Below, piece after piece: positions 18,823-38,767 of a stretch of 40,568 bases of DNA. Position 1 is the stretch's first letter. Each line of letters opens with the position of its first letter. Location: the IMG/VR virus record IMGVR_UViG_3300032053_004770, positions 1-40,568 of that record; one strand, 5' to 3'. Made by a program: the position numbers and the translations under genes. Origin of the DNA: a virus. The notes below the pieces were generated by a model. The model saw nothing but the letters and a program-made list of their open reading frames with translations. It made no database searches and had not been told where the DNA came from.

Positions 18823-18855
18823 TCGAAAAAAAGAAACATGGAGGAATTTAATAAA

Positions 18856-20082
18856 ATGGAATTGAAGGAATTAGTAAAAAAATGGAATGACATTCTCGTT
18901 GAGGGAAAGAAGATTAAATCTTCAAAAGTTGCAAAAGCAACAGCTCTTATGTTGGAGAATGAAAACAAATACTTGACTGAAACAGGAAACTATACACAGC
19001 CAGGTTTGACAAGAGATCCTGGGTATGCACATAGCGGTGATTTTCATCACATTGCTATCCCAATGGTAAGAAGAACCTTTCCCGAATTGATCGCACACGA
19101 AATCGTTGGTGTTCAGCCAATGACAGGTCCGGTTGGTTTGGCATTTGCTTTGAGATTCAGGGCTGGATCAACCTATTCAGGTTCAGGTCCACTTCCTACT
19201 CCTAATGTAAAAAATCTTGATGCTACAACATCATCTCTACCAGCAGATGAACTTGGATACAACAAGATGGATTCCAGTTATTCTGGATCAGCATTAACAA
19301 GCGCATATGAACTTTTGGGTTCAAATGTAACTGGTGATATTGGTCTTGGTGTAGGTGCAGGAACCGCAATCAAAGAAGTAAATATGACTGTTGAAAAAGC
19401 ACAGGTCGAAGCAAAGACCCGTAAACTAAGAAGCAGATGGTCATTAGAAGTAGCTCAGGATTTGAAGGCGATGCATGGTCTTGATCTTGAAGAAGAAATG
19501 TTGGACATTCTTGCGTATGAAATTACGGCAGAAATTGACCGTGAAATCATCACTGGAATTAATACTGTTGCCGTATCATCTGGTTGGGATTATAACAACC
19601 CCGCAGACGCAGACGGTCGTTGGCAGTCAGAAAAATACAGAACTCTGTATAACATGGTTGTCCGTAAAGCAAACTTGATCGCAGTATACACCCGTAGAGG
19701 AGCAGGTAACTTTGTAATCGCATCTCCTATGACATGCGCAGCATTGGAATCTTTGTCCTCATTCGTAATTCACCCAACCGATGGTGATATGAATACTTTG
19801 GTTGCCGGTGTATCAAAAATGGGTTCGCTTGATGGTCGTATCACTGTATTCAGAGACACATTCGCAACATCTGACTATTGCACAGTTGGTTACAAGGGCC
19901 CTTCAGAATATGATGCGGGTATTATTTATCTTCCTTATATTCAGTTGATGGTTAGCAAAACCATATTCGAACAGTCATTCCATCCAACCGTTGGATTGAT
20001 GAGCCGTTATGCTTTGCATTCACACATCTTTGGTGCGAACTTGTATTACAACAAGATCACTGTATTCAACCTACCCCAGTAA
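18856..20082 (+). CDS. 23: Major capsid protein, T4 gp23 type
   Basis: 408 residues from ATG 18856. An ATG at 18838 is rejected because the ribosome site GGAGG (18840-18844) lies just inside it and is correctly spaced for 18856. The gp23 signature is plain: IPMVRRTFPELIAHEIVGVQ, then MTGPVGLAFALRFR, later RSRWSLEVAQDLKAMHG and PSEYDAGIIYLPY. It is shorter than T4 gp23 (521), like other far-T4 capsids. A likely gp21 cut is after LTE at residue 42, which would remove the N-terminal delta piece; LVE at 16 is a second candidate. Codon usage here is richer in C-ending codons than in neighbours, fitting very high expression. Confidence 0.95.
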   Translation: MELKELVKKWNDILVEGKKIKSSKVAKATALMLENENKYLTETGNYTQPGLTRDPGYAHSGDFHHIAIPMVRRTFPELIAHEIVGVQPMTGPVGLAFALRFRAGSTYSGSGPLPTPNVKNLDATTSSLPADELGYNKMDSSYSGSALTSAYELLGSNVTGDIGLGVGAGTAIKEVNMTVEKAQVEAKTRKLRSRWSLEVAQDLKAMHGLDLEEEMLDILAYEITAEIDREIITGINTVAVSSGWDYNNPADADGRWQSEKYRTLYNMVVRKANLIAVYTRRGAGNFVIASPMTCAALESLSSFVIHPTDGDMNTLVAGVSKMGSLDGRITVFRDTFATSDYCTVGYKGPSEYDAGIIYLPYIQLMVSKTIFEQSFHPTVGLMSRYALHSHIFGANLYYNKITVFNLPQ

Positions 20083-20109
20083 ACTATATAGATAACTGAG
20101 TTCACATAG

Positions 20110-20143
20110 ACCCTTGTAGGTGAAAGCCTACGAGGGTTTTTTT
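20110..20143 (+). terminator. Rho-independent terminator after the capsid gene
   Basis: An 11-base stem (ACCCTTGTAGG / CCTACGAGGGT, one G-T wobble) with a six-base loop, followed by seven T. It separates the capsid operon from the terminase/PrkA operon. Confidence 0.92.
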
Positions 20144-20148
20144 ATTTT

Positions 20149-20156
20149 TATAAATA
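20149..20156 (+). promoter_or_regulatory. T4-type late promoter box (TATAAATA) before gp16/prkA
   Basis: TATAAATA immediately after the terminator, predicted start near 20162. A sigma70-type promoter follows within 12 bases, so the operon appears to have two overlapping promoter types. Confidence 0.55.
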
Positions 20157-20216: not shown

Positions 20217-20768
20217 ATGCAGGAAATAAATGATAGTAAACTGAAAGAAGAATTTGGTTTAGAAGTCATTGATATTTCAGAAGAAATTGAAAAACCATCT
20301 TCAGGAATGCCAGTGTATCTTCCTGCCCGTGATCCCGCCCAAATTCTTTATAATAATATTGATAGGGCTAATCGCTTTCTTGATAGACTTGAAAGAAAAA
20401 TAGATGAAGATGACAGTATCGAATCAAGACAGGTTGAAGTCGCCGCAAAAATGTTGGATTCAATCACACAAGCCGCAGAAAGAATATTTACAACTCAATT
20501 AGAATATGATACACTCTCACTAAAGACTAAATTTTTGGATTTGAAACAAAGGGAACTTGATATAAAAGAAAAGATTGGTTTGTTGCAAAGTGGTGCCCCA
20601 AGAAGTCAGAATAATATTCTCATAGCAGATCGAGAATCTATTTTGCGAGTAATAAGGGAGAAATCCCAAGAGAAGGAAAAATTGTTATACGAAGGAGAGG
20701 TAAAGGAGAATGATAATGTCAATGCAGGAATATCGGCAGGTAATTCTGGAACAGAGGGAGAAGGTTGA
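20217..20768 (+). CDS. 16: Small terminase subunit, T4 gp16 type
   Basis: 183 residues (T4 gp16 is 164) from ATG 20217; upstream in-frame ATGs fall in the promoter or lack the GAAGGA spacing. The core (NIDRANRFLDRLERKI, RQVEVAAKMLDSITQAAERI) is the helical oligomerisation block of gp16-like proteins, followed by a charged coiled-coil-like region and a flexible Gly/Asn/Glu tail. gp16 regulates the packaging motor gp17. In most T4-like phages gp16 and gp17 are adjacent; here three other genes separate them. Its 3' end overlaps the next gene by 53 bases. Confidence 0.78.
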   Translation: MQEINDSKLKEEFGLEVIDISEEIEKPSSGMPVYLPARDPAQILYNNIDRANRFLDRLERKIDEDDSIESRQVEVAAKMLDSITQAAERIFTTQLEYDTLSLKTKFLDLKQRELDIKEKIGLLQSGAPRSQNNILIADRESILRVIREKSQEKEKLLYEGEVKENDNVNAGISAGNSGTEGEG

Positions 20769-22650
20769 TAATACCGAATGGGAAGGCTCTGTTCTTGATT
20801 ATTTACAAAAAGTAAAAGAAAATCCGAAAATTGCAAATTTTGCACCTGGAAGAATTTATGATATGATCGTAAATTATGGTGTTGAAGATGTTTCCCCTGA
20901 AGAAAAGATCAGGGGATATGAGGATTTGGTCAAATACAAATTCTTTTCAGGAAAGATTTATGGTAGTTATCAGGCTATCCATGATCTTATGAAATTCCTC
21001 AAAGCGTCTGCCCGTAGAACCGAAACAGGAAAACGTATCCTTATTATGGTTGGTCCTGTTAGTTCTGGTAAATCTACGATTGCTTCTCTTGTCAAAAGAG
21101 GATTGGAAAATGATCCTGTTGATAAATATGCAATCAAAAATTGTCCTATCAATGAAGAACCTCTTCATGTTATCCCAAAAGATGTAAGAGATTATTGGGA
21201 AAAAGAATTAGGGGTCAAAATTGAAGGAACCTTATGTCCTGTATGTTTACAGGAATATGAGAAAAAACATTGGGAAGAAATTCCTGTTTCCAAAATCAAA
21301 TTTTCTGAACAAAAGCGTGTTGGTATTGGAACATTTCAACCCTCTGATCCTAAGTCACAGGATATTTCTGAATTGATTGGTAGGGTCAATATGTCTAAAA
21401 TGACCCGCTTTGGTGAAACTGATCCGAGAGCATATCAGTTCAATGGTGAAATTCAAATCGCTAATGGTGGTTTGATCGAATACATTGAAATTCTGAAAGC
21501 GGATGTAAAATTCCATTATGTTCTTATCACCGCCGCACAGGAACAGGTTATCAAATCACCTGGATTTCCACAGATGTATATTGATACTTTGATTCTTGCT
21601 CATACTAACCAGACAGAGTATGATATTTTCAAAGCGGATAAAAAGAATGAGGCTCTTCATGATCGTATGTATCCGATTATGGTTCCTTGGAATGTCAAGG
21701 TAAGTGATGAAATCAAAATTTATCAAAAAATGATTTCAGAATCTGATTTCCGTAATATTCATATTTCACCAGGAGCATTGAAAGTAGCCGCTCAATTTGC
21801 TGTTCTTTCTCGCTTGAAACAATCAAATAAAATTTCTTCATTGGTTGAAAAGATGAGAATCTATGATGGAGAAATTAGTGAGGAAATGAAAAAACAAGAA
21901 GTTGATATAAAGGCTTTGCGTGAAGAAGGTCGTGTTCAAGGTGAAGGAATGTCAGGGGTATCTCCCCGTTTCATTATCAATGCTATAAATATTGCATTGG
22001 GAATGAAAGAGGAAAAAAAATGCGTTGATGCTATTGATATTCTTCGTGCATTACGCCAGAATTTTGATCATCATATTGGAGTCAATGATGAAGATAAGGT
22101 GAGATATATCAATCTTTTGGTAGGTGAAAAAGAATCTGTTGCTTATGAGTTCAAGCAGTTTGCAAAGAAAGAAGTAAATATGTCTTTCTTATCTGCATAC
22201 GATGAACAAGCGCAGACTTTGTTTGAAAATTATATGTCAAATGTTACTTCATATGTTCGTAAAGAAAAAGTAACCGATACTATTACAGGGGAAACAAGTG
22301 ATCCTGATGAAAAATTGATGAGGTCAATTGAAGAACCTATTGGGATTCCTGTTCCTTCGAAGGATGATTTTCGTAAAGGTATTTTTATTTACAAAGCAGG
22401 ACAATTGGAAAAACATTTACTCTTTACATTCAAAGATTATGGTCCTCTTCGTGAAGGTATCGAAAAGAAATTGATTCATGATCTCAAAAATGTTGTGTCC
22501 CTTACTATTGCGGATAGAACAGTATCCGATGATAAATCGAAAAGACGCAGGGGAACTGCAATCGCAAATCTACGAGAACACGGTTATTGCGATGAATGCG
22601 CTGGAAGATTGTTGAGTTTTGTCGGAGAAATACTTCGTAAAGAAAGTTAG
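20716..22650 (+). CDS. prkA: PrkA/YeaG-family AAA+ protein
   Basis: 644 residues, the length of cellular PrkA/YeaG proteins. ATG 20716 is chosen since AAAGGAG ends eight bases upstream. A Walker A motif, GPVSSGKST, lies at ~113-121, followed by the family block CPINEEPLHV, a CPVC knuckle at 174-177, GTFQPSDPKSQDISELIG, DPRAYQFNGE, ITAAQEQVIKSP and later EGMSGVSPR. The C-terminal PrkA domain is present (KQFAKKEVNM to the end). PrkA was described as a Ser kinase and more recently as a Lon-like ATP-dependent protease in Bacillus; it acts in stationary-phase and starvation responses. The gene overlaps the end of gp16, so translation is likely coupled. The three genes in order PrkA, YeaH, SpoVR match a conserved bacterial operon. 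Confidence 0.92.
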   Translation: MSMQEYRQVILEQREKVDNTEWEGSVLDYLQKVKENPKIANFAPGRIYDMIVNYGVEDVSPEEKIRGYEDLVKYKFFSGKIYGSYQAIHDLMKFLKASARRTETGKRILIMVGPVSSGKSTIASLVKRGLENDPVDKYAIKNCPINEEPLHVIPKDVRDYWEKELGVKIEGTLCPVCLQEYEKKHWEEIPVSKIKFSEQKRVGIGTFQPSDPKSQDISELIGRVNMSKMTRFGETDPRAYQFNGEIQIANGGLIEYIEILKADVKFHYVLITAAQEQVIKSPGFPQMYIDTLILAHTNQTEYDIFKADKKNEALHDRMYPIMVPWNVKVSDEIKIYQKMISESDFRNIHISPGALKVAAQFAVLSRLKQSNKISSLVEKMRIYDGEISEEMKKQEVDIKALREEGRVQGEGMSGVSPRFIINAINIALGMKEEKKCVDAIDILRALRQNFDHHIGVNDEDKVRYINLLVGEKESVAYEFKQFAKKEVNMSFLSAYDEQAQTLFENYMSNVTSYVRKEKVTDTITGETSDPDEKLMRSIEEPIGIPVPSKDDFRKGIFIYKAGQLEKHLLFTFKDYGPLREGIEKKLIHDLKNVVSLTIADRTVSDDKSKRRRGTAIANLREHGYCDECAGRLLSFVGEILRKES

Positions 22651-22654
22651 AACT

Positions 22655-22673
22655 AAGGGGTCATTGACCCCTT
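22655..22673 (+). terminator. Short hairpin between prkA and yeaH, possible attenuator
   Basis: AAGGGGT / ACCCCTT around CATTG, followed by ATAATTTTTA. The U tract is late and weak, so partial termination or an RNA stability element is more likely than a full stop. It starts four bases after the prkA stop codon. Confidence 0.5.
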
Positions 22674-22696
22674 ATAATTTTTAGAGGAGAATATTT

Positions 22697-24001
22697 ATGG
22701 CGATTGTTCCGCATGATTCTTGGGACTTGTCTGAAAAAGGAATGAAGGATGCCCAGAGACATAGAGAAAAAATAGATGATGCTATACGTAAAAATGTCAG
22801 AGATGTTATTGCTGATGAATCTATTATTACTCGAAAAGAAGGAAGAAAAGTAAAAATTCCTGTAAAGGGTCTTCGTGATTACAGGTTTGTTTACGGTATT
22901 CCAGAAAATCGCCAAGGGGGAATTGGTCAAGGAAAAGGAAAAGCAGGGGATGTTCTTGATGAAAAACAAGCGGGTAATGGAAATAAAGCAGGAAATCAAG
23001 CCGGTGAAGATTATATGGAAACCGAAGTTGATCTTGATTATCTTATCAAGATCATGTTTGATGAATTAGGTTTACCTTATATTGAAGAAAAAACAAAGAC
23101 TGAACATCTTGTTCCGAAGGGATGGAAGTTTGATACAATTTCGAAGGTGGGTATTCATCCCCGAATACATAAACATAGAACACTCAAAGAAGCAATCAAG
23201 AGAACGATGGAGTTTGCTTATGAGATTATTGAGGAAACTGGATGTACAGAAGATATTGCTTTAGCATCTCTTGAAGAAGCAAAGGGGGATTTACAAGTTG
23301 CAATTGAACTTGTAAAAACTGGAAATCTTACGCTAAAATCTCCTTCGGGTGCAATGTTTATTGAGGATGATGATCTTCGATTCAAACAAATTGAAGAAGA
23401 TATGGAAATTCATAGCAATGCGGCTGTAATTGCTGTTATGGATACTTCTGGTTCGATGACTTCAGATAAAAAATATCTTGCTCGTTCAATGTTGTTTTGG
23501 ATGGTTGAGTTTCTTCGAAAAGCATATAATAATGTTGCTATCAAATTTGTTGTCCATACAACCGATGCAAAGGTTGTAAGTGAAGAAGATTTTTTCAGAA
23601 AAGGGGAAGACGGGGGAACATACTGTCATACAGGACTTGATCTTGCAGATTATTTGATTGAAACAGAATTTCCTCTTGATACTTGGAATGTTTATGTAAT
23701 CTACATTTCTGATGGTGAAGATTTTGATTCGAATAAAACGATTGTTTCAATTCGTAAACTTGTTGATAGAAAAATCAATATGTTTGGATATATGGAACTT
23801 CAAGTTGATTCTGGATATGGGTTCAGCCCAGGTCAATCTTTACTTGGTTATATAACAAAAGCGTTTCCGTTTGATACTCATTCTGAACAAGGAACACAAT
23901 TTTATAAAAATGAAGAACTTCATATGTTGGCGGGAATAATAAAAAGCAGGGAACATGTTTATCCTGCATTGAAACATCTTCTCTTTGAGAAGAAGAAATA
24001 G
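22697..24001 (+). CDS. yeaH: YeaH/YhbH (DUF444) family protein with vWA-like domain
   Basis: 434 residues, similar to cellular YeaH (about 430), with AGGAG at 22684-22688. The N-terminus has the family pattern of a charged helix (RHREKIDDAIRKNVRDVIADESI) leading to VKIPVKGLRDYRF and a Gly/Lys/Gln-rich linker (~75-100). The C-terminal half is a von Willebrand A-like fold with a MIDAS motif DTSGSM at 249-254, then GGTYCHTGLDLADYLI and YISDGEDFD. In bacteria the gene accompanies prkA, and the proteins act in the same pathway; biochemical function is not established. The phage copy looks complete. Confidence 0.9.
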   Translation: MAIVPHDSWDLSEKGMKDAQRHREKIDDAIRKNVRDVIADESIITRKEGRKVKIPVKGLRDYRFVYGIPENRQGGIGQGKGKAGDVLDEKQAGNGNKAGNQAGEDYMETEVDLDYLIKIMFDELGLPYIEEKTKTEHLVPKGWKFDTISKVGIHPRIHKHRTLKEAIKRTMEFAYEIIEETGCTEDIALASLEEAKGDLQVAIELVKTGNLTLKSPSGAMFIEDDDLRFKQIEEDMEIHSNAAVIAVMDTSGSMTSDKKYLARSMLFWMVEFLRKAYNNVAIKFVVHTTDAKVVSEEDFFRKGEDGGTYCHTGLDLADYLIETEFPLDTWNVYVIYISDGEDFDSNKTIVSIRKLVDRKINMFGYMELQVDSGYGFSPGQSLLGYITKAFPFDTHSEQGTQFYKNEELHMLAGIIKSREHVYPALKHLLFEKKK

Positions 24002-24011
24002 GGGAAAAAAG

Positions 24012-25616
24012 ATGACACATGAAGACCTTCAACGGTTGATAAAAATTGAAGATAGGATAAATCAGATTGCGGTCGGAATGGGATTGAAACCTTGTCCTAT
24101 TGAATGGGATGTTGTGCCTCCCCCAAAGATGTTAGAAATTATGGCTTACCGTGGACCAACACAAGTTTCTTCTTGGAAATTTGGAAGAGATTATGAGAAA
24201 ATTAGAACCATGTATGAACATGGTGACTCTATTCCAATGGAAGTTGTTATCAATGATTGTCCTGCGAGAGCATATTTGATGAACTCAAATCCTCTTGCTG
24301 TTCAAGCATTGGTCATGGCTCATGTTGTCGGTCATGTACATTTTTTTACAATGAATAAATGGTTCAAGAATAATAGAAGAGATATTATTGGTTTGCTTGC
24401 GGATGCTTATGTTCGTTTCAATGAATATGAAAGGCTTTATGGTTATGATGCGGTTGAAAAAACTGTAGATGCGGCACATGCTCTTCAATTTCATTCTGAT
24501 CCATTTTATAATGAATCGGAAGAGGCTGCTCGACAAAGAGTTTATGAACAAAAAAGAGTTTCTCTAAGAAAAACAAAGCACGAATTTAATGATCTTACAA
24601 TAGGTGTTTCTGAAATTGAAGAAAAAAAAGAAGTGGAACATATAAATTCTAAAATTTGGCAGGAATTGAGAATGAAAACCCCTGTTGAACCAGTTGAAGA
24701 TATATTGAGATATGTTATTGATAATTCAAGATATCTTGATAATTGGCAGAAAGATATTCTGGAAACTTTAAGAACGGAAGGTCAATATTATTGGCCTATT
24801 ATTAAAACTAAAGTGATGAACGAAGGATATGCCACTTGGATTCATGAACAAATTATATCTCAATTATTTGTTGAGGATGTTCTTACAACTGATGAACATG
24901 GTCAATATAATTATGCTAATTCACTTGTAACTGCAAAATTGAGAATGACTATGAATCCTTATCTTGTTGGTAGGGAAATGTGGAAAGATATAAAGGAAAG
25001 ATGGGATAAGGGTCGTTATGGAACTGAATATGATAATTGTACCGATTATGTTCAAAAAGAAGCATGGGATACAAAAGAAATGAAAGGTATGGAAAAAGTA
25101 AATTCTGTTCTTGAAACATATACTGATTGGTTTTTTATGCAGGATTTTATGACTAATAAACTTATTGATGATTTGGATATGTATATTTATCAAAAAGTTA
25201 GACAGGGTGATATTGAAAAATGGGTTAGAACAGATCATACAATTGAACAAATACGAAAAATTATTGTAACAAGTTTTTCGTATAGTGGTATTCCAAAGAT
25301 TGAAATTATCAATGGAAATTATGATGGAAATGGATCATTGCTTATGATCCATTCAAATGATGATCTTCGTCTTGATGAAAAGTATTGTATTGAAACCTTG
25401 AAACATATTTACTTTTTATGGGGTAGACCCGTTATGTTGAGATGTAAAGTGGGCCCTGGAAAGGGACAAGATGCAATTTATAAAGTAGACGCTAAAGGTG
25501 TTGATACTGTAGATAAAGATGGGGGTTCAAGTTTAATGAAAAAGAAATCTAAATCAACCAACCTTACATATTTCAATCCGATGTTGAGCCAAGAAAAAAT
25601 TATCATTCTCCAATAA
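24012..25616 (+). CDS. spoVR: SpoVR/YcgB family protein
   Basis: 534 residues, near the length of cellular SpoVR/YcgB (about 500). ATG 24012 follows AGGGG at 24000-24004; an upstream in-frame ATG would run into the preceding gene. Family blocks are clear: PPPKMLEIMAYRGPTQVSSWKFGRDYEK, then VINDCPARAYLMNSNPLAVQALVMAHV and a His-rich motif AHVVGHVHFF near 103-112 that could bind metal; later EGYATWIHEQI and NPYLVGREMWKDI. SpoVR affects spore cortex in Bacillus; in non-sporulating bacteria it belongs with prkA and yeaH in stress response. It closes the three-gene set and is followed by a terminator. Confidence 0.9.
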   Translation: MTHEDLQRLIKIEDRINQIAVGMGLKPCPIEWDVVPPPKMLEIMAYRGPTQVSSWKFGRDYEKIRTMYEHGDSIPMEVVINDCPARAYLMNSNPLAVQALVMAHVVGHVHFFTMNKWFKNNRRDIIGLLADAYVRFNEYERLYGYDAVEKTVDAAHALQFHSDPFYNESEEAARQRVYEQKRVSLRKTKHEFNDLTIGVSEIEEKKEVEHINSKIWQELRMKTPVEPVEDILRYVIDNSRYLDNWQKDILETLRTEGQYYWPIIKTKVMNEGYATWIHEQIISQLFVEDVLTTDEHGQYNYANSLVTAKLRMTMNPYLVGREMWKDIKERWDKGRYGTEYDNCTDYVQKEAWDTKEMKGMEKVNSVLETYTDWFFMQDFMTNKLIDDLDMYIYQKVRQGDIEKWVRTDHTIEQIRKIIVTSFSYSGIPKIEIINGNYDGNGSLLMIHSNDDLRLDEKYCIETLKHIYFLWGRPVMLRCKVGPGKGQDAIYKVDAKGVDTVDKDGGSSLMKKKSKSTNLTYFNPMLSQEKIIILQ

Positions 25617-25640
25617 TGAAAAAACTCTCCGGCTCACGAC

Positions 25641-25675
25641 CCCAATATAGTAATATATTGGGGTTTTCTTTTTTC
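25641..25675 (+). terminator. Rho-independent terminator after spoVR
   Basis: A 10-base perfect stem (CCCCAATATA / TATATTGGGG) with loop GTAA, followed by TTTTCTTTTTT. It isolates the gp16-prkA-yeaH-spoVR unit from gp17. Confidence 0.9.
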
Positions 25676-25715
25676 TGGACAATCCTCTGATATAAATAAT
25701 ATAGTAATATATTGG
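25645..25715 (+). repeat. 18-base direct repeat shared by terminator and gp17 leader
   Basis: AATATAGTAATATATTGG occurs at 25645-25662, forming the inner terminator hairpin, and again at 25698-25715, just downstream of the late promoter box and touching the ribosome site GGAGGA. Each copy is itself a small inverted repeat (AATATA-GTAA-TATATT). Confidence 0.85.
25691..25698 (+). promoter_or_regulatory. T4-type late promoter box (TATAAATA) before gp17
   Basis: TATAAATA after the spoVR terminator, predicted start near 25704, leader with GGAGGA (25714-25719) before ATG 25729. Confidence 0.6.
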
Positions 25716-25728
25716 AGGATTTTTATTT

Positions 25729-27273
25729 ATGACGATCAGATATACAGAAAATGTAAAAAGACCAGGCGAAGAACATGAATATTCATTGGATCAAATCGCA
25801 GAATTGGGAAAATGTTCAGAAGATATCTGGCATTTTCTCAAGTATGTAAAAATCATTCATCCAGATAGGGGAAGAATTCTTTTTCATCCATATGAATATC
25901 AAAGAAAAATTCTTAAAATGTTTCAGAAGCATAGGTTTATTATTTCATTATTGTCTCGTCAATCAGGAAAAACGACAGTAGTTGCGATTTATGCTTTATG
26001 GTATGCGTTATTTTTTCCTGATAAAACTGTTGGTATAGTATCAAATAAACAAACATCAGCAACAGATATTTTACATAGAATAAAACTTATGTATGAAGAG
26101 TTGCCCGGATGGTTGAAGCCTGGAGTAAGAGAGTATAGCAAAACATTTATTACTTTTGATAATGGTTCAAGAGTTATAGTTTCTGCAACATCGGAAGATG
26201 CTTTTCGTGGTAGAACATTGAACCTATTGGTTATGGATGAATTTGCATTTGTTCGTAAGAATGTTGCAGAAGGATTTTGGTCTGCAAACTATCCTACAAT
26301 TTCCGCTTCTCAGGAATCAAAAATTTGTATTATATCTACCCCCAATGGTATTTTTAATTTATTTCATCAGATATATTCACAAGCAGAAAGAGGGGAAAAT
26401 GAATTTAAATATATCAAATCTACTTGGAGAGACGTTCCAGGAAGAAGTGATGAATGGGCAAAAGAACAGTTGCGAAACTTGGGTAAAACAAGATTTGCAC
26501 AAGAATTTGCTGTTGAATTTTTAGGTTCTAATAATACACTTATTGATACAATTGTACTTGAAACATTATTCAGTAAGTATTCTGAAACTTGGTCACAAGA
26601 ACTTGGCGGTGCGTTTAGAGTATATGAGAAACCTTTGGCTGGTGCCAAATATACAATAGGTGTTGATGTTGCTACGGGTGCTGGAGAAGATTTTTCTACA
26701 ATACAGGTAATAAGAATGATAGGTTTACAACCTGTAAAATGTAAACAAGTAGCAACATATCAAAATAATACGATAGACGTATATAATTTTACAGAAGTTG
26801 TTCATAGAATCGCAGTTTATTATAATCAAGCATATATTATGTGTGAAAATAATGCTGAAGGATCGGTTGTTGTCAATGGTTTATGGTGGGATTTTGAAAA
26901 TGCGGGATTGGTAAATTATGGAAATAAAACACGTGAATTAGGTATGAGGGCTAATAGAAAATCAAAACCCGCTGTTGTTCTTTATATGAAAAAACTTATT
27001 GAGTCTGGACAATTGGAAATTATTGATAAAGGAACTGTAGAAGAGCTTGGTGCATTTGTTGAAGAAAATGGTAGATTTTTTGGAAAGGATATAAATGATG
27101 ATCTTGTATCAGCATTGTATTGGTCTACTGCTATATTTCAAATGAATGTTCTGGATGAAACAGCAACTCTCCGAGTTGTCAATGATGTAAAAGAAGAAGA
27201 TGATACTTGGGGAATTTTATCGGATTCAGATACCTATGTTGATGACTTCTCTTGGGTAATTAGAGATAGATAA
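25729..27273 (+). CDS. 17: Large terminase subunit, T4 gp17 type
   Basis: 514 residues (T4 gp17: 610). The ATPase domain carries a Walker A SRQSGKTT at 76-83 and Walker B LLVMDE at 166-171, followed by the coupling motif region IISTPNG. The C-terminal nuclease domain starts with GVDVATGAGEDFS (Asp313), then MCENNAEGSVV, and ends with a DINDDLVSALYWS acidic motif, giving the three acidic positions of the RNase H-like headful nuclease. It packages DNA into proheads at the portal. The position after an unrelated three-gene insertion, and its own terminator and promoter boundary, set it apart from gp16. Confidence 0.95.
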   Translation: MTIRYTENVKRPGEEHEYSLDQIAELGKCSEDIWHFLKYVKIIHPDRGRILFHPYEYQRKILKMFQKHRFIISLLSRQSGKTTVVAIYALWYALFFPDKTVGIVSNKQTSATDILHRIKLMYEELPGWLKPGVREYSKTFITFDNGSRVIVSATSEDAFRGRTLNLLVMDEFAFVRKNVAEGFWSANYPTISASQESKICIISTPNGIFNLFHQIYSQAERGENEFKYIKSTWRDVPGRSDEWAKEQLRNLGKTRFAQEFAVEFLGSNNTLIDTIVLETLFSKYSETWSQELGGAFRVYEKPLAGAKYTIGVDVATGAGEDFSTIQVIRMIGLQPVKCKQVATYQNNTIDVYNFTEVVHRIAVYYNQAYIMCENNAEGSVVVNGLWWDFENAGLVNYGNKTRELGMRANRKSKPAVVLYMKKLIESGQLEIIDKGTVEELGAFVEENGRFFGKDINDDLVSALYWSTAIFQMNVLDETATLRVVNDVKEEDDTWGILSDSDTYVDDFSWVIRDR

Positions 27274-29536: not shown

Positions 29537-31357
29537 ATGAGACTTGAATTATTTTTAGAGAAAAATAAAATGATTGGAATATTTGTTGGTAGAATGAGCC
29601 CTCCTACAAGAGCGCATCAGGCAATTATCAATCTTTCTTTATCGAAATATGCGGAGGTTTATGTTGTTATTATAGAGGGAATGCAAACTTCTCTTTTGTC
29701 GAAGAATTTTTTGACATTTGACGAGAGAAAAAAATTATTACATATTACAAATCCAGGAGTAAAACCTCTCTTGGCAAGGCAAGGTTATCTTCCAGATATT
29801 ATCAAAGAGAACCATATCAATACAGTTCACGGTATTGCTATAATTGCAGGAACGGATAGAATTGATTCCTATATGAAACAATTCAAGAAAGAAGATTATT
29901 CTGTTATTGCAGATGAAATCAAAAGAACTGAAAAGGATGTATCCGCAGGAAAGGTTAGAGACACACTTGCGAGAAATGATTTTGCTTCATATAAGAAGAT
30001 GGTGGCGAAGGGTCTTGATAACCATCAATGGTTTCAGACATTGAGAGGATTATTGATCAAGAAACAAAAGAATGTAAAAGAAGAAATCCTGAGACTTTTT
30101 GGTGGTATGAAAAAACTGTATGAGAAAATAAAAAATATGTTATTTGGAGGAAAAATGTTGAAAGAGGAAAGTGTAAATAAACATATTGAACATTACGAAG
30201 ATAATGTTTTCAATATGGGGGCGCAAGGAATAAAACAAAATATAGCAATTGCATATTCCATAAAGGATATGCTTACTGGTGATGCAAAATTCAAGAATAC
30301 ATCAATAACCGTAAAATGGGATGGTGCTCCCGCAGTTATCTTCGGTAAAAATCCAGAAGATGGAAAGTTTTTTGTGAGTACAAAATCTTTATTCAATGTT
30401 ACACCAAAACTTGGTAGAACTGATAAGGAGATTGATGAAAATTTTGGACACTCTCCTACTCTTGCAAAAAAACTGAAGGTATGTTTGAAGTATCTTTCAA
30501 AATTGAATATCAAAACGATGTATCAGGGAGATTTACTTTTTACAGATGATAAGAAGAATGAGAATATAGACGGTGATCCTTTTATTACTTTTACTCCAAA
30601 TACAATTACCTATGCTATACCTGACGATGATTCATCTCTTGCAAAAAAGATTAGGGCTTCGAAGATGGGTATCGTTATTCATACAGAGTATACGGGAAAA
30701 TCTCTTCAATTATTATCAGCAAAATTCAATATTGATGTAACATCTCATTTCAATAATAGAGATATATGGATACAGGATGCTTACATAAAAGATATATCAG
30801 GTATCGTCAATTTGGAAAGGAATGAACAAAAAGCAATAGATACGAATATTGATAGTATAAATGATTTATTTGCAAGAATTGACACAGGATTTTTCAGTCA
30901 ATTGAGAGATAGTAAATTATTTGATCTATTGAAGATGTTCAATAATGTATATGTAAAAGAAGGTAAACCAGTTGAAAATCCAGGAGTGTTTATAAATGAT
31001 TTTTCTGCTTGGATAAATGATAAATATAAAAGTGAAATAAGTAAATTGAAAATAGATAAGGCGAAGAAAAGTAGAGAGGTTGAAAGAGATGCAATAATCT
31101 CATTCATGAAGACATATAAGAATGATTTTATCAATGCTATAACAATTTATTCATTATTCATAATAATAAAATTAATTTACATTCGTAGATTTGAGAAAAT
31201 TGATAATATCAAAGCATTGATCAAAACAAGTGATGGTGAATATCGTGTTTCTGCTCCAGAGGGGTTCTGTGTAATTGATAATGATGGTTCAGTATTGAAA
31301 CTTGTAGATAGATTAGAATTTAGTCGATCAAATTTTTTGATACAGAAGAGTTGGTAA
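29537..31357 (+). CDS. Fusion of NMNAT-like nucleotidylyltransferase and KxDG ligase-like nucleotidyltransferase
   Basis: 606 residues. Residues ~12-175 resemble class I HIGH-type nucleotidylyltransferases (NMNAT/NadM): FVGRMSPPTRAHQ with TRAH in place of HxGH, an IIAGTDRID strand and SAGKVRDTL like the second nucleotide motif. A linker (~176-210) leads to a second domain with TVKWDG (Lys260) as KxDG motif I of covalent nucleotidyltransferases (RNA/DNA ligase superfamily), MYQGDLLF and TEYTG segments, PEGFCVID near 574-581 as motif IV and LKLV near 587-590 as motif V. The spacing from motif I to IV is long for a ligase, so an unusual subfamily is likely. The N-terminus MRLELFLE is only an imperfect match to the capsid-targeting peptides of its neighbours. 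Substrates are not shown; NAD or RNA end metabolism is plausible. Confidence 0.7.
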   Translation: MRLELFLEKNKMIGIFVGRMSPPTRAHQAIINLSLSKYAEVYVVIIEGMQTSLLSKNFLTFDERKKLLHITNPGVKPLLARQGYLPDIIKENHINTVHGIAIIAGTDRIDSYMKQFKKEDYSVIADEIKRTEKDVSAGKVRDTLARNDFASYKKMVAKGLDNHQWFQTLRGLLIKKQKNVKEEILRLFGGMKKLYEKIKNMLFGGKMLKEESVNKHIEHYEDNVFNMGAQGIKQNIAIAYSIKDMLTGDAKFKNTSITVKWDGAPAVIFGKNPEDGKFFVSTKSLFNVTPKLGRTDKEIDENFGHSPTLAKKLKVCLKYLSKLNIKTMYQGDLLFTDDKKNENIDGDPFITFTPNTITYAIPDDDSSLAKKIRASKMGIVIHTEYTGKSLQLLSAKFNIDVTSHFNNRDIWIQDAYIKDISGIVNLERNEQKAIDTNIDSINDLFARIDTGFFSQLRDSKLFDLLKMFNNVYVKEGKPVENPGVFINDFSAWINDKYKSEISKLKIDKAKKSREVERDAIISFMKTYKNDFINAITIYSLFIIIKLIYIRRFEKIDNIKALIKTSDGEYRVSAPEGFCVIDNDGSVLKLVDRLEFSRSNFLIQKSW

Positions 31358-32525: not shown

Positions 32526-33038
32526 ATGGCTGTAAACACAGTAACTATAAATCGTGCTACTCCGGTAAGTTATAAACTAACTATTCCGTTGTTACCTACT
32601 GAAACTTCTTTGTCTGCAACAAAAGAATTAATTTTGGATATATTCGGAACAATAATTCCTACTGTTACACTTGATCAGACAGAGGAAAGATGGCAGGCTG
32701 CAAAAATGCAAATGGCATCTGGAAGTGTTACTTTTGATACATGGACCTTTTCCTTTATTGTTGATAATCAATTTAAAAATTGGAAATCTTTATTCAAATG
32801 GTTGGTATATATAAACAACAATACGGATTCATATAATAAAAGACCACAGCAATATGCTATTGATTGTTCATTGAGTATTATAGATAATTTTAATAAAGAA
32901 ATTTTAAGAATATTTTTTAAAAATGTTTGGATTCAAGCCCTTGGAGAAGTGTCAATGTCCCAAAGAGAGGGTGAAATGATTCTTGAATGTAATACGACAA
33001 TGCAATATGACCGCTTTGAGATTGAGGAAAAGGTATAA
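32526..33038 (+). CDS. Tail-tube-fold protein, divergent gp19 relative
   Basis: 170 residues. It lines up by eye with the tail tube protein at 36120: TWTFSFIVDNQFKNWKSLFKWL against DWTITFNVDINSDINTMFMNWM, a YAIDCSLSIID segment where the tube protein has DQQIELLNLD, then VWIQALGEVSMSQREGEMILECNTTMQYDRF against AWVKMMGPITLDYASNDIAQFDVTFSYMY. Its N-terminus is different and lacks the FDI-Y lead. A gp19-fold part such as a tube cap, initiator or terminator is plausible; T4 gp3 and gp54 belong to this structural class. Confidence 0.6.
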   Translation: MAVNTVTINRATPVSYKLTIPLLPTETSLSATKELILDIFGTIIPTVTLDQTEERWQAAKMQMASGSVTFDTWTFSFIVDNQFKNWKSLFKWLVYINNNTDSYNKRPQQYAIDCSLSIIDNFNKEILRIFFKNVWIQALGEVSMSQREGEMILECNTTMQYDRFEIEEKV

Positions 33039-36119: not shown

Positions 36120-36668
36120 ATGCCAAGATTTGATATTGACAGTTATAGAGCATCTTTTCAGGGCGGTGCAAGGCAGTATTTGTTTTATGTTAAACCAAAT
36201 TTTCCCGCAGGAGTAGCGGGAGCTGATACGGAAAGAGCAACATATCTTGTAAGATCGTCAACATTACCTGAAACCACAACAGAAGAAATTATGCTTAACT
36301 GGCAGGGTTTTGACTATAAGGTTGCGGGAAAATATACATATGCTGATTGGACAATTACATTCAATGTAGATATTAATTCAGATATTAATACAATGTTTAT
36401 GAATTGGATGAACTTGATTCATGATCCAACAACAAATTTATACAATGTCCCATCTACATATTTAGCAGATCAACAGATTGAATTGTTAAATTTAGATAGT
36501 AAACCAATTATGAAGTATAAATTGGTAGGTGCATGGGTAAAAATGATGGGTCCGATTACATTGGATTATGCATCAAATGATATAGCACAGTTTGATGTAA
36601 CATTTTCATACATGTATCATGTTACTGATAAGGCATCTTATGGTGTTACACCTGCATTCAGTGGTTAA
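36120..36668 (+). CDS. 19: Tail tube protein, T4 gp19 type, copy 1
   Basis: 182 residues (T4 gp19: 163), with GGAGGA at 36106-36111. It has the lead FDIDSYRASFQGGARQYLFYVKPNFP, the YLVRSSTLPETT strand, the YADWTITFNVD beta-hairpin and the closing LDYASNDIAQFDVTFSYMYHV. Hexamers stack to form the inner tail tube. As the shortest and simplest of the three close copies, and directly after the sheath gene, it is the likely main tube subunit. Confidence 0.93.
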   Translation: MPRFDIDSYRASFQGGARQYLFYVKPNFPAGVAGADTERATYLVRSSTLPETTTEEIMLNWQGFDYKVAGKYTYADWTITFNVDINSDINTMFMNWMNLIHDPTTNLYNVPSTYLADQQIELLNLDSKPIMKYKLVGAWVKMMGPITLDYASNDIAQFDVTFSYMYHVTDKASYGVTPAFSG

Positions 36669-36670
36669 TA

Positions 36671-37015
36671 ATGTCAAGAAAATTAACATATGATTATGTA
36701 AAAAAATTCATAGAAGACACTGGATATAATTAGTATCCAGTGTCTATAAAAATGAATATCAAAAACTTGAATTAATATGTAATAAAGAACATAATTATAA
36801 ACAAGAATGGTTGTCTTTATTTAAATAAAGCAATAGAATTTAATGGATTATATTGGCATTCTAATTTATATCAACAATTTAAGGATACCCAGAAAATAGA
36901 ACAATGTAAAAAATTATGTATTAATTTATTAACAATAAATGATAATGAATGGGTTAATAATCAAGATGAATGTGTAAATAGATTAAGAGGGTTTATAAAT
37001 GAAGCCTGGGTTTGA
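36671..37015 (+). pseudogene. Remnant of a T4-like homing endonuclease
   Basis: Three broken pieces in two frames. ATG 36671 to TAG 36733 reads MSRKLTYDYVKKFIEDTGYN, a usual opening of these endonucleases. A second piece, 36736-36828, reads VYKNEYQKLELICNKEHNYKQEW, the typical following repeat. A third, 36809-37015, reads NKAIEFNGLYWHSNLYQQF, then KIEQCKKLC and NDNEWVNNQDECVNRLRGFI, the Vsr-like C-terminal nuclease region. The first two are separated by a frame change and a stop, and the middle of the gene is deleted. The third piece runs into the start of the next tail tube gene. It occupies nearly the whole ~330-base gap between tube copies 1 and 2. Confidence 0.75.
36715..36745. repeat. 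Perfect 12-base inverted repeat at the endonuclease break
   Basis: AGACACTGGATA (36715-36726) and TATCCAGTGTCT (36734-36745) around a seven-base loop. It sits exactly at the stop and frame change between the first two endonuclease pieces. No T run follows. It could be the result of a template-switch error or act as an RNA hairpin after gp19. Confidence 0.85.
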
Positions 37016-37844
37016 TATTGAAACATATAAAACAAGATTTCTTGGTGGGGCTCGACAGTATTTATTCTTCGTAGTAATGGTATTGCCTGCTACTGATTCT
37101 ACATTGAGTAAATCATCTGGTGGGGGCAGGGATGATGATTTAGGATTATTATCAGGAATTAAAGACAGGATACGAAATGCTACAGAACCTATTGTTTCGA
37201 AATATAATGCAATAAGTAAATTTGGTACTCCGGTTACAAATCCACTAACTGGTCTTGGTGGGCAATTACAGACAAGTGTTGGAAATGCTTTTAGTGATAT
37301 AACATCAAAAAGTATTGCAAATATGGGTCAGATAACAGGTTTAAGAGCGTTAAATATTTTTGGATTAAATAGAGAAAATGATATGATAGCATATCATGTT
37401 AGATCAACTACTTTACCTGGAATGGCATTTGATGAGAAAGTAATAGATTGGTCTGGTTTACCTTTTAAAATGGCAGGAAATGTAATGTTCAATGATTGGA
37501 CTGTATCTTTTAATGTAGATGAAGGCGGAACATTACTTCAAAAATTTAATAAATGGCAATCATTGATTGCTAATTCTGAAAGAGGATTTAGAGGTTCTAT
37601 CAGGGATTATATGATAGATCAAGAAGTTCATCTTTTAAGTTATTCTGGAGATAGTGTTACATCATATAAGTTATATGGATGCTGGCCAAAATCAGTAGGA
37701 GATGTTGCACTTGATTATTCATCACAAGAAATTGCTGTTGTTGATGTTACTTTTTCATATCAAAGATATGATGTATTACCTGGACCATCACCTGTAGTTG
37801 GTGATATAATTAAGAGAGGATTTAACAGGATTTTAGGTAAATAG
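36999..37844 (+). CDS. Tail tube protein paralogue, copy 2, with insertion
   Basis: 281 residues. Same ends as gp19: FDIETYKTRFLGGARQYLFFV at the start, then YHVRSTTLPGM, FNDWTVSFNVDEG, and LDYSSQEIAVVDVTFSYQRYDV. About 80-90 extra residues are inserted after the first strand (~35-125, with GGGRDDDLGLLSGIKDR and NPLTGLGGQLQTSVGNAFSD), probably a surface or lumen domain, and there is a short C-terminal extension. The start ATG lies inside the endonuclease remnant, with AGAGG at 36986-36990. It may be a specialised tube ring or a decoration. Confidence 0.85.
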   Translation: MKPGFDIETYKTRFLGGARQYLFFVVMVLPATDSTLSKSSGGGRDDDLGLLSGIKDRIRNATEPIVSKYNAISKFGTPVTNPLTGLGGQLQTSVGNAFSDITSKSIANMGQITGLRALNIFGLNRENDMIAYHVRSTTLPGMAFDEKVIDWSGLPFKMAGNVMFNDWTVSFNVDEGGTLLQKFNKWQSLIANSERGFRGSIRDYMIDQEVHLLSYSGDSVTSYKLYGCWPKSVGDVALDYSSQEIAVVDVTFSYQRYDVLPGPSPVVGDIIKRGFNRILGK

Positions 37845-38050: not shown

Positions 38051-38767
38051 ATGACGATAGCAGGATTTGATATAAATACGTATAAGAGCAAGTTTCTTGG
38101 TGGAGCAAGAGCATATTTATTTTTTATAAGGCTTAATTTTCCAGGATATACAAATGTTATACAATCTACAATTCAAGGCGGTCTTGCTAATGGTCTTACG
38201 GGAAATTTAGGAATAGATGAATTAAAAATTATAGGTGAAGGTGCTGCTGTTGGGGCAGCACAATCTGCCGTTGATGTTGCATATTTAGGGAAAAAAACTG
38301 AGAATTTTTCATATTATGTAAGAGCAACAACTCTTCCAGAATCAAATATTAATGAAACCGTATCCCATTGGGGCGGACAAGTATATAAGTTTGGAGCAAC
38401 AACAACATTTTCGGATTGGACTGTAACAATGAATGTAGATTCAAATGCTGATGTTTTAGTAAAATTTAATGATTGGATGACAATGGTTCATAATCCGCAA
38501 ACAAATACATACGGAAGACCTGTAAATTATATGGTAGATCAGGAAGCACTTCTTCTTGGTGGAGATGGAAACCCAATCGCAGTTTATAGATTATATAGTG
38601 CATGGCCGAAGATATTGAATGCTGTATCTCTTGATTATGCGACAAATGATGTAGCAACAGTTGATGTTACCTTTTCTTATCAGTATCATACAGTTGATAG
38701 AAAATCTATTGGTCAGACAGAAGTAGAAATAAAGAAGGGTATAAGGTCGATTATAAGTGGATTGTAA
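38051..38767 (+). CDS. Tail tube protein paralogue, copy 3, with insertion
   Basis: 238 residues. It shows the gp19 plan: FDINTYKSKFLGGARAYLFFIRLNFP, YYVRATTLPESN, FSDWTVTMNVDSNADVLVKFNDWM, then NPQTNTYGRPVNYMVDQEALLL and LDYATNDVATVDVTFSYQYHTVD. A ~50-residue Gly/Ala-rich insertion (~33-83) replaces the short loop of copy 1 and differs in sequence from that of copy 2. The start follows a weak ribosome site two bases after the previous stop. Role beyond tube fold unknown. Confidence 0.85.
   Translation: MTIAGFDINTYKSKFLGGARAYLFFIRLNFPGYTNVIQSTIQGGLANGLTGNLGIDELKIIGEGAAVGAAQSAVDVAYLGKKTENFSYYVRATTLPESNINETVSHWGGQVYKFGATTTFSDWTVTMNVDSNADVLVKFNDWMTMVHNPQTNTYGRPVNYMVDQEALLLGGDGNPIAVYRLYSAWPKILNAVSLDYATNDVATVDVTFSYQYHTVDRKSIGQTEVEIKKGIRSIISGL

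Follow-up and report, generated by a model that had tools for sequence, protein, structure and literature searches.

Why should a T4-like phage keep a complete bacterial operon between its two terminase genes? This question is raised by the IMG/VR virus record IMGVR_UViG_3300032053_004770, whose 40,568 bases (the window, meaning this whole stretch) hold a T4-like morphogenesis module. The genes prkA, yeaH and spoVR (the trio) are located there between a gp16-like small terminase gene and the gene for the large terminase (TerL); all three are full-length and carry every motif of their families. Comparison of sequences indicates that the phage clade almost certainly captured one complete bacterial prkA-yeaH-spoVR operon, which became fixed downstream of the small terminase gene, and that these four genes are, as predicted, one late transcription unit. 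The genes in question are as follows, in window coordinates.

20217-20768, plus strand: small terminase (gp16-like), a 31-member family with a profile match to T4-family gp16
20716-22650, plus strand: prkA, AAA+ protein with PrkA C-terminal domain (PF08298, PF06798, phrog_22605), in a clade of relatives
22697-24001, plus strand: yeaH (DUF444), von Willebrand factor A (VWA)-like protein (PF04285, 6.5e-85; phrog_19072)
24012-25616, plus strand: spoVR (PF04293, 3e-91; PF24755, 6e-11; phrog_35217)
25729-27273, plus strand: large terminase (gp17-like), TerL (PF03237, PF17289 and several TerL PHROGs)

The trio is a regular part of a phage clade

An earlier note, made from the letters of the window, had proposed a trio of three families in cellular order inside a phage packaging operon, which is an unusual site. 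Both Pfam and recurrence in other contigs confirmed this, and profile searches assigned the PrkA, DUF444/YeaH and SpoVR families, all far above cut-off. All three proteins are covered over nearly their full length (in PrkA by PF08298 at residues 27-375, 4e-111, and PF06798 at 379-637, 2e-65), and PHROGs holds one family for each trio protein, all listed with function unknown. The gene order of the module is portal, prohead protease, scaffold, gp23-like capsid, a small open reading frame (ORF), PrkA, YeaH, SpoVR, TerL, Ad2, Hc2, sheath stabiliser, and sheath and tube genes.

Relatives were gathered by a PrkA search and by an independent TerL search, and 83 different IMG/VR contigs carry this PrkA. 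PrkA-YeaH-SpoVR is collinear in 71 of them, cut by the end of the contig or locus in 12 and rearranged in none. The small terminase gene stands directly upstream of the trio in 59 of the 83 contigs, and in 62 the trio is followed by TerL on its own strand. The TerL-anchored search was blind to the trio and placed trio genes before TerL in 10/10 loci having upstream sequence. In three loci (L023, L027 and L169; L numbers are our labels for loci), the block of PrkA, YeaH, SpoVR and TerL runs opposite to the capsid and neck genes on both sides. Because the block is inverted as a whole, this suggests that these four genes travel together.

There are exceptions to this arrangement. Two sisters, L053 and L045, which have the same small terminase-TerL pair, lack the trio at the site and have ORFs resembling a deoxynucleoside monophosphate kinase (dNMP kinase) and a lipoprotein instead. 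These ORFs, of which the lipoprotein-like one is on the minus strand, lie at L053:5192-6410 and L045:3021-4201. In L004, L005, L011 and L173, the trio is found on contigs of 33-68 kb without a detectable TerL or capsid gene; its neighbours are Hsp20 and a transfer-messenger RNA (tmRNA) in L004, and SbcCD and thymidylate synthase in L173. The phage-borne tmRNA of L004 (17847-18213) is directly 3' of spoVR. No trio was found near TerL among TerL relatives at 45% identity or below.

An assembly chimera, host contamination or a functionless recent passenger might also place bacterial genes in such a record, and errors of this kind do occur: a prophage record, that of Enterobacter phage LAU1 (L022, MN688132.1 1-3308), has yeaGH recorded as phage genes at its extreme end, where they most likely belong to host DNA bordering the prophage. 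In the window, however, the base composition of the trio runs on smoothly into its flanks, and the arrangement, trio then TerL, recurs in 62 contigs. Because of this continuity and of the recurrence across dozens of independent contigs, chimera or contamination, which the earlier note had named as a danger, was ruled out. Strong purifying selection and monophyly, described below, also speak against this explanation, to which we attach practically no weight.

Origin and selection

In the trees of PrkA, YeaH and SpoVR, the phage group forms one clade each (support of 99, 100 and 100 in the Shimodaira-Hasegawa-like approximate likelihood ratio test). Its sister in all three trees is the chromosomal prkA-yeaH-spoVR operons of metagenome-assembled genomes of Desulfobacterota and Spirochaetota, and L193, one such operon, is flanked by genes that are clearly bacterial. 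Thus, a bacterial-type origin of the trio is shown by the trees. Operons of this kind are uncommon in the phyla of these nearest cellular relatives, where only a minority of the sampled genomes match PrkA (19/118, 6/149 and 11/56). The Thermus phages branch elsewhere in the PrkA tree, and so do the huge phages, in two sets. One origin for all phage trios was rejected by the approximately unbiased test (p 1e-47), as was a group made up of this clade and the Thermus phages (p 0.014). Because the phage copies form one clade in three trees, each beside the same chromosomal operons, the trio almost certainly entered this clade once and as a unit; into phages as a whole it entered several times. Phage copies form one clade within this T4-like group, but not across all phages. 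There is no close T4-like isolate, as the best TerL identity is 40% among 2,927 phage records with a homologous TerL.

Constraint was compared pairwise in 24 dereplicated contigs. Median pairwise identity was 0.665 for PrkA, 0.664 for the major capsid protein, 0.613 for TerL, 0.589 for YeaH and 0.516 for SpoVR, and pairwise divergence was correlated among all five proteins (Mantel r 0.51-0.88). The median ratio of nonsynonymous to synonymous substitution rates (dN/dS) was 0.067, 0.077 and 0.092 for the trio, compared with 0.082 for TerL and 0.073 for the capsid protein. Since identity, correlated divergence and dN/dS are like those of TerL and capsid, the trio genes are evidently core genes under capsid-like purifying selection and not decaying cargo. 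Intact motifs and these dN/dS values likewise uphold the first impression, from the window, that the genes show no decay. The clade shows that genes labelled as auxiliary genes of sporulation or starvation can belong to the core of a virus lineage and need not be optional cargo.

A predicted late transcription unit

The signals around the four genes, and the gene upstream of them, are as follows.

18838-20082, plus strand: major capsid protein (gp23-like), upstream neighbour (PF07068, 4.5e-101)
20108-20139, plus strand: intrinsic-terminator-like hairpin after the major capsid gene (14-pair stem, loop of 4, T-rich tail)
20149-20156, plus strand: T4-type late promoter motif TATAAATA of the predicted unit of small terminase and trio, exact match
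22654-22674, plus strand: short hairpin between prkA and yeaH, a 9-pair terminator-like stem and possible attenuator
25638-25665, plus strand: intrinsic-terminator-like hairpin after spoVR, closing the unit (12-pair stem, T-rich tail)
25691-25698, plus strand: separate late promoter motif TATAAATA before TerL, exact match

The motif TATAAATA is the core sequence of late promoters in T4-like phages. The window has 13 copies where 5.9 would be expected, and 11 of them are on the coding (plus) strand. Seven of these 11 fall 10-60 bases before an ORF start, versus 14.8% for permuted 8-mers. The copy at 20149 is 38 bases before the start of the small terminase ORF and 68 bases before its homologue-supported ATG, and the copy at 25691 is 38 bases before TerL. 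Among relatives, the motif precedes TerL in 43/70 and the small terminase gene in 18/38, and it precedes none of 220 trio gene starts (PrkA 0/76, YeaH 0/71, SpoVR 0/73). It was also absent before the window's own trio genes. Of the relocated trios, L004, L005 and L011 have no copy within 400 bases of PrkA and L173 has a single one, 318 bases upstream of PrkA. On the basis of this motif placement and the terminator-like hairpins, the trio is predicted to be late and read from the small terminase promoter, so that small terminase, PrkA, YeaH and SpoVR would be one late transcription unit and TerL would have its own promoter. The description "phage packaging operon" is thus apt in that the trio shares a predicted unit with the small terminase gene, but not for TerL, a separate predicted unit with its own motif.

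The small terminase and the trio proteins

The ORF of the small terminase is open from ATG 20187, and homologues support ATG 20217. A single-sequence Pfam and PHROG search of this gene gave nothing above noise. The 31-sequence profile has its best PDB matches in 3TXS and 3TXQ, which are gp16 of phage 44RR, a small terminase of the T4 family (E 7e-4, profile positions 30-97), which supports the label gp16 used earlier; hhalign of the profile to T4 and C48C1 gp16 gave E 6e-4 with a probability of only 28. The predicted model is a long helical hairpin, as expected; 3txs_B ranks only 45 among the helical structure matches, and Foldseek of the model gave no match at E <= 0.001. We call this putative gp16 homologue the small terminase because of the profile match and its position before TerL, which it also has in the trio-less sisters.

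The overlap of prkA with the small terminase gene, first given as 53 bases, is correct if PrkA starts at ATG 20716; from the alternative ATG 20710 it is 59 bases. ATG 20716 has the better-spaced Shine-Dalgarno sequence (AAGGAG). Numbered from this start, the Walker A motif GPVSSGKST is at residues 113-121, and the other motifs read from the window, CPVC in PrkA, DTSGSM of the metal ion-dependent adhesion site (MIDAS) in YeaH and AHVVGHVHFF in SpoVR, are likewise present. Walker A, the acidic Walker B-like E257/E260, N300, R319 and R420 of PrkA are invariant across 16 phage sequences including Thermus phages, with residue roles assigned by analogy. Sequence search found solved-structure relatives of PrkA (9xip, 9xiq and 9xir) and none that were credible for YeaH and none for SpoVR. 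A second PrkA copy was sought in 15 long contigs, and each has a single PrkA. PrkA had been introduced as an AAA+ protein described as kinase or protease. PF08298 and Walker A substantiate the former, and the latter is doubtful because neither kinase nor protease activity was detectable with purified B. anthracis PrkA (PMC13001217).

The MIDAS of YeaH is complete (D249, S251, S253, T308 and D339, DxSxS...T...D) and invariant in 18 phage and cellular sequences. SpoVR starts at ATG 24012, which is preferred over the upstream TTG 23985. Its HxxxH (H104/H108), ExxxD (149/153) and EGxAxxxH (E271, G272, A274, H278) residues are invariant in 20 phage and cellular sequences. HxxxH together with ExxxD recalls the gluzincin metallopeptidases, but SpoVR lacks the catalytic Glu of HExxH: residue 105 is V here and in nearly all relatives, and never E. 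The top structural (VIA) matches of the SpoVR model (predicted template modelling score 0.78) are mostly zincin peptidases and their relatives (3o0y, Z 11.7; M32 3dwc, 8.5; M2 ACE2, 7.3; M61, 7.2), and Foldseek of the model gave no match at E <= 0.001. These matches are a lead that SpoVR may be a metallopeptidase-like protein with altered chemistry, and a zincin-type core is a possible, candidate fold assignment for the SpoVR family. SpoVR of B. subtilis binds RNA in vivo (PMC12456014).

Possible function of the trio

In MoxR-type AAA+ systems (RavA-ViaA, CbbQ-CbbO and NorQ-NorD), the motor is encoded beside a VWA/MIDAS partner. PrkA represents a separate AAA+ family, marked by a C-terminal domain of its own, SpoVR has no counterpart in those systems, and the likeness here consists only of adjacency and intact motifs. 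We tentatively propose, with a little under even confidence, that the trio is a remodelling machine of the AAA+/VWA kind, which works on the infected cell at a late stage and is not a structural part of the packaging motor. PrkA would form an ATP-driven AAA+ ring as the motor, YeaH, a VWA/MIDAS protein, would dock on it as an adaptor, as in RavA-ViaA or CbbQ-CbbO, and SpoVR, with a zincin-like core lacking the catalytic Glu, would be an effector or client loaded or remodelled by the motor. Made late, such a machine could serve protein quality control, or a starvation or stress state that sustains late synthesis until lysis. The relocated trios and the sisters without a trio at the site support a role in the infected cell, and in bacteria the homologous proteins have roles in starvation, stress and sporulation (PMC4664914, PMC6299236, PMC13001217).

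Several points weigh against this proposal. The relocated trios come from fragmentary contigs, the docking of VWA protein on AAA+ ring and SpoVR as effector are drawn by analogy, and the structural matches of the SpoVR model are of middling Z. Furthermore, the steady lodging of the trio in the predicted late unit of the small terminase gene, also within inverted blocks, is the pattern expected of an assembly factor. The trio might accordingly be a dedicated AAA+ chaperone for late morphogenesis or packaging, which would remodel, load or take apart an intermediate of the head, portal or terminase; that the block keeps TerL even where it is flipped against the genes on either side, that the trio is conserved like the capsid protein and that its gene starts have no late promoter of their own all fit this. 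However, the sisters do without the trio at the same terminase pair, four relatives moved it away, and phages with a homologous TerL (2,927 records) package without it, PrkA matches in phages being confined to Thermus phages, huge phages and one prophage flank. Dedicated packaging use is weakened because of the relocated trios, the trio-less sisters and the other arrangements in Thermus and huge phages. We therefore consider an assembly role unlikely and lean toward a role in the infected cell. It is slightly less likely still that an AAA+/VWA/zincin-like stress machine has been turned into an essential late virion-assembly or packaging device, which would be the first PrkA-YeaH-SpoVR role outside cell physiology.

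The infected-cell role also has a narrower version, in which the trio is an auxiliary gene set that imposes or maintains the host starvation programme governed by host PrkA/YeaG and is mainly useful in slow or starved cells. E. coli yeaG supports nitrogen-starvation adaptation and rpoS-dependent expression (PMC4664914) and was likened to a molecular brake that acts on ATP-consuming transcription (PMC6299236), a study of an oxygen minimum zone found spoVR to be the most abundant of the viral genes related to sporulation (PMC8940887), and phages acquired such genes several times independently. The expression predicted here is late and not early, though, and only a minority of the sampled genomes of the nearest cellular relatives' phyla have PrkA, so the phage may not match a host pathway; we think this version improbable and rank it below the two roles above. 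As for the two roles offered in the earlier note, a late function agrees with the promoter evidence, its form as a dedicated packaging device has lost ground, and host reprogramming is plausible. The natural contrast of trio present, absent and relocated can separate a packaging role from an infected-cell role. The clade also offers a minimal, separable version of a system that is widespread in bacteria, as a compact, predicted late module under capsid-like constraint.

Relation to known systems

The chromosomal operons of Desulfobacterota and Spirochaetota (L193, Syntrophobacteraceae; L191, Spirochaetales) have the same families and order, with identities of 54-57% for PrkA, 40-46% for YeaH and 39-43% for SpoVR, but have no terminase or head genes nearby and a G+C content of 0.53-0.66. 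In E. coli, spoVR (ycgB) lies elsewhere, apart from yeaGH. E. coli yeaGH and prkA of B. subtilis and B. anthracis, of the PrkA family and with stress or sporulation roles (PMC4664914, PMC13001217), are regulated by stress promoters, unlike the phage trio.

That single homologues may exist in other phages, as had been surmised, is true and understated, because complete trios occur in Thermus and huge phages. Thermus phages phiYS40, TMA, phiLo and MN1 have all three genes (annotated as serine kinase, SpoVR and "conserved bacterial protein"), but arranged as YeaH-SpoVR-PrkA, at a site other than that between the two terminase genes, of separate origin and with PrkA 30-33% identical. The huge metagenomic phages LR756511, LR745206, LR756502 and LR756504 have all three families per genome; they occupy two further places in the PrkA tree, and in LR756502 SpoVR is far from PrkA. 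The Ralstonia phage RsoM2USA, a myovirus, has SpoVR (ORF28) and PrkA (ORF30) close together, as compared by its published table only (PMC8504454); it differs in being a jumbo phage, with published best matches that are gammaproteobacterial. Phage-borne PrkA, YeaH and SpoVR are therefore already known as annotations (Thermus phage records; PMC8504454; spoVR in PMC8940887). What is new is the clade-wide fixation, the single capture, the location in a predicted terminase late operon and the inteins in all three genes. Literature searches, which fell short of most subscription papers, turned up no account of such an operon, nor of inteins in prkA, yeaH or spoVR. As for a defence system, PADLOC gave only a weak Csx3 P-loop match, and this candidate was rejected.

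Inteins and minor observations

LAGLIDADG inteins are found in relatives at two sites inside PrkA (SDPK|SQD and LLK|CD), in YeaH before SGGT of the MIDAS region, in SpoVR inside NEGWA|TYW and in TerL at the P-loop. Homing elements thus strike the most conserved motifs of the trio. Group I introns were rejected as the cause of the interrupted genes, as there was no Rfam match at gathering and the trio inserts are in-frame inteins. The intein-bearing loci are as follows.

L012:8653-10001, L184, L016:8554-10001, L004:13421-14661, L013:6136-7205 and L015:16445-17457: inteins in PrkA, YeaH, SpoVR and TerL

The TerL insert of L018 (5095-6182) has intein-like ends (CVTGD...NHN|C) and 21 stops in the TerL frame, and may be an intein that has broken down or else a nested endonuclease in a shifted frame. 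Free-standing homing or HNH endonuclease genes lie between trio genes of relatives (L173:10343-11329 and L004:15071-16306), and the PrkA-YeaH gap in relatives reaches up to 1.4 kb.

Elsewhere in the window, G+C content is 0.51 at 1-2681, a region of collagen-like and fibre genes, versus about 0.33 in the rest. A 606-amino-acid protein at 29537-31357 has a cytidylyltransferase-like N-terminus joined to DUF6267. Finally, four tail-tube-like paralogues (phrog_45) are present in one module, at 32526-33038, 36120-36668, 36999-37844 and 38051-38767.

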